A stretch of DNA of 64,000 bases from Niastella caeni (GTDB lineage Bacteria; Bacteroidota; Bacteroidia; Chitinophagales; Chitinophagaceae). The notes below the pieces were generated by a model. It saw only the letters and a list, made by a program, of their open reading frames with translations, had not been told where the DNA came from and searched no databases. The DNA lies in NCBI RefSeq assembly GCF_004834005.1, contig NZ_STFF01000002.1, positions 124,001-188,000 of the forward strand, written 5' to 3'. Below, piece by piece: positions 53 through 45,414 of this stretch (positions are counted from its first letter, which is position 1; each line of letters starts with the position of its first letter). A program made the position numbers and the translations under genes.

Positions 53-982
53 TTACAAAATATCATTTCCGTTCTTTATTTCCGCCTTCACCATTCTTTC
101 CTTCCCCTGAAAATCTTTCTTCACTTCTGCTTTAAACCCTTTCGATTCAAATAGTGTTTTGGTTTGTTCGCCAAGATCTTCATGAATCTCTGCAAAGATG
201 GATCCGCCGGGTAATAATTTTTGTTGCGCGAAGCGGGCAATGGCATCGTAAAATAAAAGAGGATCTTCATTAGGTACAAACAAAGCCAGGTGTGGTTCAT
301 ATGCCAGCACATTCTGCAACATGCTGTTTTTATTGTGCTGTGGAATATAAGGCGGATTGCTCACGATGATGCCAACTGCCGGCAGCTTGGACCAGGCAGC
401 TGCATCTAAAAAGTCAACGGGTAAAAATTGAATGGGGGTTTGCTGGGCTGCTGCATTTTTAGCAGCTACCGCCAGCGCCTGTTCGCTTACATCGCAGGCA
501 TAGATCGTTGCTTCCGGCAATTTCTTTTTAAGGGCGATGGGGATACACCCGCTTCCTGTGCCTATGTCTAAAATGCTGAGGTAAGAAGTAGGAGGTACGA
601 GGTATGAAGAGTCTTTATTGCCGATTGCTCCCGCTTTTGTGCGGGACCGATTGCCGACTTCCGCCACCACCCACTCCACCAATTCTTCTGTCTCAGGGCG
701 TGGTATCAATACACTCTCATCCACATAAAACGGCATTCCGCAAAACCAGGCTTCGTGCAACACATATTGCACGGGTTTATTCGTCAGTAATTCCTGCGTG
801 TATTGTTTCAATTGGGCAATGCGGTCGGGCGACAAAAGCGACTGTTTATGCATGATGCGGTCGATCTTTCGCATGCCGGTAACATGTTCCATAACCCAGT
901 CTGCAATGTTGGCGGCCTCGCGGTTATCGTACAGTTCATGCAGGCTTGTCTGCAATTGTTGCTGCGCCTCTTGTAGCGTCAT
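53..982 (-). CDS. prmC: Release factor glutamine methyltransferase PrmC (HemK)
   Basis: 309 aa. SAM-dependent enzyme that methylates the glutamine of the GGQ motif of peptide release factors in the cytoplasm. Seen: N-terminal helical domain (1-80), IPRPETEELV (about 93-102), SAM-binding DIGTGSGCI (139-147) and the catalytic NPPY (209-212). Odd: residues about 109-135, between IPRPETEE and the SAM motif, are a low-complexity linker (SRTKAGAIGNK, SSYLVPPTSY). It is encoded by a period-7 repeat tract plus a hairpin of the kind otherwise found between genes, so the enzyme carries an in-frame insertion at a normally short linker. The -7 box lies only 5 nt before ATG. Confidence 0.95.
   Translation of the reverse strand: MTLQEAQQQLQTSLHELYDNREAANIADWVMEHVTGMRKIDRIMHKQSLLSPDRIAQLKQYTQELLTNKPVQYVLHEAWFCGMPFYVDESVLIPRPETEELVEWVVAEVGNRSRTKAGAIGNKDSSYLVPPTSYLSILDIGTGSGCIPIALKKKLPEATIYACDVSEQALAVAAKNAAAQQTPIQFLPVDFLDAAAWSKLPAVGIIVSNPPYIPQHNKNSMLQNVLAYEPHLALFVPNEDPLLFYDAIARFAQQKLLPGGSIFAEIHEDLGEQTKTLFESKGFKAEVKKDFQGKERMVKAEIKNGNDIL
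578..657. repeat. Heptad-word tract inside prmC
   Basis: Period-7 units GAGGTAA, GAAGTAG, GAGGTAC, GAGGTAT at 578-611, followed by a TCCCGC/GCGGGA hairpin (629-646) flanked by ATTGCCG words. The same GAAGTAR word family occurs between genes at 45271, 50471 and 61836. It encodes the extra linker of PrmC. Confidence 0.8.
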
Positions 983-31139: not shown

Positions 31140-31209
31140 AATGATCTGTTTAGATTGTTTTATAAAGAGACATGACGGAAATCATGATGTTGCATGGTTT
31201 CGACATTTT

Positions 31210-31368
31210 GTTTATGGTTTGAGGTTTATGGTTTGAGGTTGCTGCCGCGTTTTGGGAGTTTCAATTAAATTTAATACGCTAATTTTCAGCCTTAAAGGGT
31301 GGTTCCGGAAAATAAGGCAGTCCTGAATGAAATAACCACAAACCACAAACTATAAACCATAAACTTTC
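31210..31368. repeat. Heptad inverted pair with shared core (copy A)
   Basis: Left 31210-31237: GTTTATG, GTTTGAG, GTTTATG, GTTTGAG. Right 31334-31368: AACCACA, AACCACA, AACTATA, AACCATA. About 95-nt core starts GGTTGCTGCCGCG (31237-31249), identical to the core start at 33642, and contains GAGTTTCAATT (31256-31266), identical to 43386. Confidence 0.9.
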
Positions 31369-31401
31369 TTACTTTAGCTTAATATCGAAAAATAGTTAGT
31401 C

Positions 31402-33234: not shown

Positions 33235-33622
33235 AGGTTTTTTGCGCACGGCCGCTATACTGGGCGTGCTGGCCGTAACCCTCGGCGCTTTTGGCGCACA
33301 CGGCTTAAGGAAAATTGTTCCTGCCGAAGCAGTTGCAACATTTGAAACAGGCGTACGATATCATTTCTATCATACACTGGCTTTATTGGCCATCGCTATT
33401 TTGTTTGAAAAATTCCCGCAGCGTAGCATCCGGTATGCCGGCATTTCTTTTATCACCGGCATTGTTTTGTTCTCCGGTTCTTTATATGTACTTACCTTAT
33501 TACAGGCAACCGATACGGTAGGGTTGAAAGGCATTGGCGCCATTACGCCCATCGGCGGTTTGTTCTTTATCGTAGGTTGGTTGTGTTTGTTTGCTGGTAT
33601 TGGGAAAAAGAGCAGTTTGTAG
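33227..33622 (+). CDS. DUF423 membrane protein
   Basis: 131 aa from ATG 33227; an in-frame ATG at 33203 would overlap aroK by 32 bp. Four transmembrane helices with the family signature LGAFGAHGLRK (near 16-26), YHFYHTLALLAI and GGLFFIVGWLCL. Inner membrane, function unknown. The last codons and the stop (AGTTTGTAG) are encoded by a heptad repeat. Confidence 0.88.
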   Translation: MHKGFLRTAAILGVLAVTLGAFGAHGLRKIVPAEAVATFETGVRYHFYHTLALLAIAILFEKFPQRSIRYAGISFITGIVLFSGSLYVLTLLQATDTVGLKGIGAITPIGGLFFIVGWLCLFAGIGKKSSL

Positions 33623-33768
33623 TTTGTAGTTTATGGTTTGTGGTTGCTGCCGCGCTTTGAGATTCGCTGTTGTTTTTGAAAATCGTTTTTTATGCAGCAT
33701 GAAAGCGAAACGCCATTTAATAGTGACTTACCGAATTAAAGAACAACAAACAACAAACCATAAACTCA
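33614..33768. repeat. Heptad inverted pair with shared core (copy B)
   Basis: Left 33614-33648: AGTTTGT, AGTTTGT, AGTTTAT, GGTTTGT. Right 33741-33768: GAACAAC, AAACAAC, AAACCAT, AAACTCA. Core starts GGTTGCTGCCGCG (33642-33654) as in copy A. It spans from inside the DUF423 C-terminus to the kinase stop codon (TCA, minus TGA). Confidence 0.9.
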
Positions 33769-45270: not shown

Positions 45271-45414
45271 GAAGTAGGAAGTAGGACGTAAGAAGATAAT
45301 AAAAAGGTGAGCTCGCTATTATAAGCAAAGCTCGCCTTTTCTTTTATGCAAATTTATTTATGAGCCCTGTAGTATAGTTATCTTAATACCTCCTACTTCT
45401 TACCTCTTATTTCA
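45271..45414. repeat. Heptad inverted pair around a GGTGAGC terminator
   Basis: Left 45271-45298: GAAGTAG, GAAGTAG, GACGTAA, GAAGATA. Right 45387-45414: TACCTCC, TACTTCT, TACCTCT, TATTTCA. Core opens AAAAAGGTGAGCT, identical to the core at 50533. Confidence 0.92.
45302..45344 (+). terminator. Terminator of pafA-like gene, core of the element
   Basis: AAAAGGTGAGCT pairs with AGCTCGCCTTTT (45329-45340) with one G-U pair, then CTTTT. Confidence 0.8.

Follow-up and report, generated by a model that had tools for sequence, protein, structure and literature searches.

Dispersed repeat DNA within the translated PrmC linker of Niastella caeni

The prmC gene of Niastella caeni carries repeat DNA inside its coding sequence, in the linker that joins the PRPETE motif to DIGTGSG. 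Where did this DNA come from, and how can a conserved enzyme carry it? The gene lies in a 64-kb stretch of the N. caeni genome, the whole of which is called the window, and the features discussed are collected in Table 1. Both a PrmC_N domain and an NPPY-bearing methyltransferase domain were found in the product, as expected of PrmC. The reading frame is uninterrupted across the segment and GTGSG and NPPY are both there, so that the catalytic motifs appear intact at the sequence level, as the earlier note had proposed. The same note recognized repeat DNA here, and the heptad array and TCCCGC hairpin are indeed present and recur dispersed elsewhere in the genome. The linker measures 45 residues. 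Its excess, put previously at about 27 residues, comes instead to about 18 above the median of 27 for 103 distinct linkers (quartiles 25 and 30) and to 22 above Niastella vici. We consider it probable that the extra stretch is translated repeat DNA from two dispersed repeats, turned over by DNA-level copying and drift and kept by selection.

The linkers were drawn from a family sample in which 114 of 117 genomes had a PrmC match; 90 were fetched, 24 were left out and 86 yielded a linker. Adding 17 named loci and the remaining genus genomes gave 113 loci with the gene, and the 103 distinct linkers. The motif pair was missing from four of 60 loci (L090, L103, L108 and L111). Throughout, G000 denotes the N. 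caeni genome, other G numbers the genomes of relatives, and L numbers loci.

Table 1. Positions in the window of prmC, of the repeat features in its linker and of related intergenic repeats.
Feature	Position	Strand	Basis and remarks
prmC, release-factor glutamine methyltransferase	53..982	-	ORF of 309 aa; Pfam PF17827 (PrmC_N) and PF05175; matches solved HemK/PrmC chains
Segment not in the N. vici allele	578..649	-	about residues 112-135, net +22 aa; N. vici (L042/G008) has VVAEAGNTQSILDIGTGSG where N. caeni has VVAEVGN...SILDIGTGSG; limits judged by eye, accurate to a few bases
Degenerate heptad array GAGGTAA GAAGTAG GAGGTAC GAGGTA	578..604	+	TRF
Heptads ATTGCCGATTGC, flanking the hairpin module on one side	617..628	+	sequence; similar flanks in other module copies
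Perfect hairpin TCCCGC-TTTTGT-GCGGGA (TCCCGCTTTTGTGCGGGA)	629..646	.	between CGATTGC units; dispersed in the genome
Heptads CCGATTGCCGAC, flanking the hairpin module on its other side	647..658	+	sequence and other module copies
Codons of residues 116-133, low-confidence loop	584..637	-	AlphaFold2 model
Intergenic exact copy of the PrmC phrase GAGGTAAGAAGTAGGAGGTA	45388..45407	-	sole other exact copy; upstream of a frame resembling an M16 peptidase (by eye)
GAAGTAG array, facing opposite way to the 45388-45407 array	45271..45295	+	TRF; with 45388-45407 forms intergenic inverted heptad arms around a spacer

In the AlphaFold2 model of PrmC (mean pLDDT 86.2), residues 116-133 fall below 50, as do residues 305-309, and lie between a helix (96-118) and a strand (136-140). 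The join between helix and strand is short in solved HemK chains, at 8 residues in the best-aligned chain versus 28 in N. caeni PrmC. As modelled, the extra segment is a low-confidence loop.

The linker was compared across ten genus genomes, where the PRPETE-to-DIGTGSG distance is 23, 34, 37, 45, 46, 48, 48, 56, 58 and 66 residues, the shortest being that of N. vici, the longest that of Longitalea luteola and the two of 48 those of N. soli and N. yeongjuensis. GAAGTA/TACCTC heptads occur in N. caeni and also, in related form, in G007, G004, G001 and G003, so that the heptad part of the linker is not unique to N. caeni. Other contents are GGCAGAG with GGCAATG (G005 and G009), GGCAAAG/GGCAGAG (G006) and GCAATCG with ACGGCAA (G002), and no heptads were found in the linker of N. 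vici. The TCCCGC hairpin was read in the N. caeni linker only, one of the ten. The peptides vary widely among relatives and, since the units differ between lineages, the linker is a recurrent hot spot rather than the site of one insertion. As judged from these sequences, the short linker of N. vici may be original or may be a loss, because the genus tree is weak and N. vici is not firmly placed in it. Linkers of equal length made of non-repetitive DNA in all relatives, the pattern that the earlier note named as counting against its reading, were not what the orthologue comparison returned. Its expectation of precise ends at repeat boundaries held only roughly and against N. vici alone; elsewhere the arrays have drifted.

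Both components of the segment are dispersed in the genome. With at most one mismatch, GAGGTANGAGGTA has five matches in the window versus a shuffle mean of 0.11, and the 20-nt phrase GAGGTAAGAAGTAGGAGGTA (578-597), with at most two mismatches, occurs at 20 genome sites including PrmC versus 1 for the reversed control. Sites of the form TCCCGC..GCGGGA number 31 in the genome versus 3 in the control. In 1.25 Mb there are 49 TCCCG hairpins versus 3-15 for each of ten other G+C-rich pentamers; 39 of the 49 are intergenic, and many are followed by T-runs in the manner of a terminator. In the window, the spacer between the inverted GAAGTA arms at 45271-45407 has a GGTGAGCTCGC hairpin. The start of this spacer also follows an array at G000:C1:1266135 (L203), so arm and spacer are repeated in the genome.

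Heptad arrays were also counted irrespective of unit. At 21/28, 448 kb of N. caeni (contig C10:1-448000, the window included) contain 76 lag-7 arrays, 56 intergenic, 9 genic and 11 mixed, alongside 42 at lag 8 and 0-5 at lags 5, 6, 9, 10 and 11; 400 kb each of G007 and G002 gave 58 and 68 arrays of lag 7 and 43 and 36 of lag 8, with 0-6 for the other lags. Using our own hexamer-based gene calls, under which arrays close to a start may be untranslated, the density at 22/28 is 0.544 per kb between genes versus 0.0157 per kb within them, a difference of about 35-fold. Where two intergenic lag-7 arrays are neighbours, they tend to point towards one another: the median inverted versus direct scores are 18.5 versus 4.5 in N. 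caeni (18 pairs), and neighbouring arrays score 16.0 versus 5.0 in G007 (23 pairs) and 10.5 versus 7.5 in G002 (28 pairs), with 7, 9 and 9 pairs, respectively, exceeding the 95th percentile of random inverted pairs.

Several individual arrays were recorded alongside these counts. The 42 arrays of 8-nt period in the 448 kb form a second class, 38 of them intergenic, with units such as AAAAAGGC. Of the long heptad arrays in the stretch examined, the cleanest is a near-perfect run of AACCACA over about 129 nt (G000:C10:280735-280863). In the window, GTTTGTGG / CCACAAAC heptad arms face one another around a spacer at 31206-31370 and 33614-33758, and several copies of this arrangement have a GTTGCTGCCGCG-like edge, which suggests an element family. 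CAATTGG-type heptads and their reverse complements also stand at 1096-1200, just before a gene that by eye is ribD-like, with its start at TTG 1159 or ATG 1201.

The compound built around the hairpin recurs in unrelated genes. The module CGGTCCCG..CGGGAGCAA has 14 copies in five of the ten genus genomes versus 2 control matches; 11 of these fall within stop-to-stop frames 327-467 codons long, and around the remaining three no frame exceeds 92. All three phases are used in genes (phases 0, 1 and 2 four, three and four times), and all 11 genic copies share one orientation with respect to their gene. The hosts are PrmC, histidyl-tRNA synthetase (HisRS; G000 and G005), a PurN-type formyltransferase-DUF6787 fusion and seven FecR-type proteins, two of them examined with Pfam and five assigned by shared motifs. 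FecR-type genes presumably form a many-copy family, and since they hold 7 of the 11 genic copies the genic share is not a clean rate. Phase 0 gives the peptides VNRSRSEAGAIGN (HisRS), GNRSRTKAGAIGN (PrmC) and VNRSRLKAGAIGN and VNRSRPGTGAIGN (FecR type), and the three phases yield different peptides, for example NRSRTKAGAIGN, SAIGPASKREQSA and ETVPPQSGSKRE. RsmF of G007 has a module-like near match, IGNRSRLEAGAIGN, and a DUF4140/DUF4139 protein of N. caeni has a TCCCG hairpin followed by GCAA. Among 147 family genomes, a draw that included only two genus members (G000 and G003), the more stringent AATCGG form of the module was found in N. caeni (3 copies) and in G086 of a sister genus (3 copies) only. 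Two of the G086 copies are in frames of 516 and 456 codons in the same orientation, and the third is in a 137-codon frame in the opposite one. That elements of this kind enter genes, as the earlier note had claimed, is supported by the recurrence of phrase and module elsewhere in the genome, by relatives that lack the PrmC segment or have another heptad, and by the loop in the model.

Some of the hosts have further features. The DUF4140/DUF4139 protein (G000:C10:394327-396153) also contains an embedded TonB-receptor Plug-domain match (aa 296-390). In the fusion (L243, G004:C2), DUF6787 is N-terminal and the module lies between the two domain matches. Three FecR-type proteins (L247, L250 and L253) have, further on from the module, HSPLTxxHSP peptides of the CACTCAC heptad kind, which makes two repeat sites per protein.

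At other enzymes, too, the repeats turn over while the site stays fixed. Between the two Fmt domains (Formyl_trans_N, 20-197, and C, 233-331) there are CACTCAC-type heptads in N. caeni, CAATCGG in G007 and ACGGCAA-type units in G002, and the stretch in G001 scores just 13/21; among nine orthologues the motif pair was measured in four, the other five being read by eye. Fmt thus undergoes the same heptad turnover as PrmC, and HisRS does so in part. The HisRS site spans 14-29 aa. In G000 and G005 it measures 18 aa and consists of the module; the heptads of G001 (14 aa) are CAATCGG-like, and in G009 (29 aa) a different TCCCG..CGGGA stretch is surrounded by ACTCACC heptads. The remaining genomes have no clear repeat there, and among them G008 and G004 likewise have 18 aa. 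Since the site with the module is no longer than that of G008 and G004 without it, and 4 aa above the shortest, this looks more like replacement or build-up in place than clean insertion. LplA and RsmF orthologues also differ at heptad sites. A BaiN/HI0933-type gene of N. caeni has 20 residues more, with GAAGTCGG repeats, than those of G007 and G002, in which a heptad-like stretch aligns gap-free in a conserved segment and may be chance. The sites in Fmt, the PurN-type protein and most FecR-type proteins lie between or outside Pfam domain matches, and those of HisRS, RsmF and the TCCCG hairpin of the DUF4140 match lie inside them. The statement that such elements are tolerated only at loops is therefore too strong, with PrmC alone modelled and the others judged by Pfam boundaries. 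Among internal protein indels of at least 8 aa between N. caeni and G007/G002, heptads were found in 2 of 42, both the same insert in one gene, and on this count the idea that protein indels stem mainly from heptads was rejected.

The distribution of the module bears on the strongest alternative, which we nonetheless regard as rather unlikely: that the arrays arose on the spot as imperfect microsatellites in freely variable loops, with nothing copied in. Units do shift phase along a single array (GGCAGAG becoming GGCAATG in L005 and L007), as slippage with point mutation would give, and the length of the HisRS site is hardly altered by the module. Against this, the compound CGG-TCCCG hairpin-CGGGAGCAA is found in unrelated genes and between genes, and slippage at single sites cannot explain shared compounds. 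The 20 sites of the degenerate phrase, versus one in the control, likewise count against purely local build-up.

The repeats that are translated have a common character. The frames used are hydrophilic, with a mean of -0.82 over 48 arrays (the PrmC arrays of G000, G007 and G002 counted twice), and in 31 of 36 arrays, one duplicate pair included, the peptide in the used frame is less hydrophobic than the open antisense frames. Under the genetic code the antisense of hydrophilic codons is hydrophobic, so this comparison tests which orientation was kept. Exceptions to the hydrophilic or loop pattern are the BaiN/HI0933-type stretch and one G007 gene, lacking a match in the stretches examined, whose array is hydrophobic. 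The preferred orientation could also be expected if the linker were itself functional, whether selected as a protein linker, as an mRNA hairpin or as a heptad tract switching PrmC on and off by slippage, and the fold of one linker, L026, is much more favourable than those of its codon shuffles (z of -5.15). We consider a function of this sort very improbable. The folding z of the 21 heptad linkers does not differ overall from that of the 82 others (one-sided Mann-Whitney p=0.13), and an RNA hairpin as the selected feature was rejected on this result. The linker peptides differ widely among relatives, N. vici does without the segment, and arrays so short and degenerate are poor substrates for switching, so phase variation was judged unlikely. 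The inserted peptide probably has no function of its own.

At the scale of the family, 7-nt periodicity accompanies linker length. In a codon-shuffle test at p<=0.01, it was significant in 6 of 11 linkers of 31-40 aa, 6 of 49 of 26-30 aa and 0 of 31 of at most 25 aa (2 at 0.05). Because seven is not a multiple of three, this periodicity marks a repeat at the DNA level. At 15/21, a cut-off picked after the scores were known, lag-7 matches are centred in the linker in 22 of the 103 genes and lie outside it in 5. The corresponding numbers are 18 and 4 for lag 14, itself a multiple of 7, and 0-1 and 0-5 for lags 4-6 and 8-13. Linkers of 33-40 aa without a significant repeat do occur (L019, L040, L077 and L087, with L040 and L077 at 40 aa), but all 12 linkers above 40 aa passed the codon-shuffle test and hardly any match falls in the linker at lags 4-6 and 8-13, so that an ordinary variable linker with a coincidental repeat can be set aside as having next to no likelihood. 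When the linker is excluded from the PrmC tree, 12 changes are required to account for the heptad state, present in 21 of 103 rows, versus 15-21 (mean 19.2) in 300 label shuffles. For the 93 rows that lie outside the genus, 12 of which have heptads, 10 changes are required; with many weak inner branches in the tree, these counts are rough. The PrmC pattern GGTTRCW of G021 has 2 matches in G021 (one of them PrmC), 13 in G000, 11 in G007, 6 in G099, 1 in G084 and 0 in G067, with controls at 0. For the G099 PrmC pattern GAGTRGC there are 2 matches in G099, both at PrmC, and 1 in G000; no donor was found elsewhere in G099.

Translated repeat DNA from two dispersed sources could have arisen in the following way. 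The older part of the linker would be the degenerate 7-nt array (GARGTAN), of a kind common to several genus relatives, and the younger part would be the hairpin module (CAATCGG - TCCCGC hairpin - GCAATCGGCAAT), seen at PrmC in N. caeni only, of the ten genomes. Modules may be copied as DNA from place to place by gene conversion, template switching or an unknown form of transposition, and an incoming module may overwrite a repeat already present. Arrays would grow, shrink and drift through slippage, and purifying selection would retain genic copies only where they keep the frame, encode hydrophilic residues and occupy flexible loops, linkers or termini. By eye, no clear target-site duplication, a mark of MITEs together with terminal inverted repeats and a cognate transposase, was seen at PrmC, HisRS or the module flanks, nor was an exact empty site for the repeat segments seen in the genomes compared, and for this reason movement of the repeats is only inferred. 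A hairpin bounded by an exact 7-bp target duplication was also considered; its flanks are direct heptad repeats, but removing the hairpin leaves the heptad phase unrestored, and the idea was rejected.

Heptad repeats are known from cyanobacteria as the STRR heptamers, which are mostly intergenic. These belong to another phylum than Niastella. Costa et al. are reportedly the source, in 2002, for heptanucleotide repeats in the P6b element of the Nostoc tRNA-Leu intron. Degenerate heptads in P6b pair into a hairpin whose length varies by repeat number, with extra indels (PMC3488679); unlike the Niastella repeats, they sit in the RNA stem of an intron and are untranslated. TAACTGA heptamer direct repeats are intergenic in Bacteroidetes and others, with a minority in ORFs and mostly near protein ends (MacGregor 2015, PMC4679880). 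They resemble the present repeats in having 7-nt units and a mostly intergenic location and differ in having one fixed unit, where Niastella has many degenerate units, a hairpin module and internal sites in conserved enzymes. The units in N. caeni PrmC are GARGTAN and CGATTGC, not TAACTGA, and other linkers have further units.

The closest parallel is with the Rickettsia palindromic elements, which a review describes as about 150 bp long and as forming ten families, with a conserved peptide encoded by each (Ogata et al. 2000, 2002, via PMC10969869). In both cases dispersed, palindrome-bearing DNA is translated in frame in unrelated genes. The Niastella module likewise lies both in genes and between genes, its 14 copies in five of ten genomes comprising 11 in long frames and 3 not, and it appears to be accommodated in frame with the host protein kept, going by the open frames and the PrmC motifs. 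It lacks a trait that defines the Rickettsia elements, the roughly 150-bp length with a conserved peptide, being about 40 nt long with heptad flanks and using three phases, and it differs also in belonging to Bacteroidota. The review treats Rickettsia as the outstanding case of translated repeat DNA in bacterial proteins (PMC10969869). Our search of the open-access literature, with subscription papers mostly outside its scope, found no account of translated heptads or palindromes in genes of Chitinophagaceae.

Translated repeat DNA in conserved single-copy enzymes is unusual among bacteria. We suggest tentatively, as a possibility that falls somewhat short of an even chance, that Niastella and its nearest relatives harbour a still active class of tiny translated elements, made up of heptad flanks and a TCCCG hairpin, that repeatedly rebuild enzyme loops and inter-domain linkers. 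They would represent a second, independent origin of 'coding palindromes' outside Rickettsiales and a standing source of new protein segments. In practice, such linkers should be excluded from trees and should not be read as functional. A single housekeeping gene here offers 103 distinct natural linkers, short and long and of many repeat flavours, and several of the species are isolates. This set makes it possible to test how repeats enter proteins, which orientation and frame survive, and whether loops of this kind gain function.
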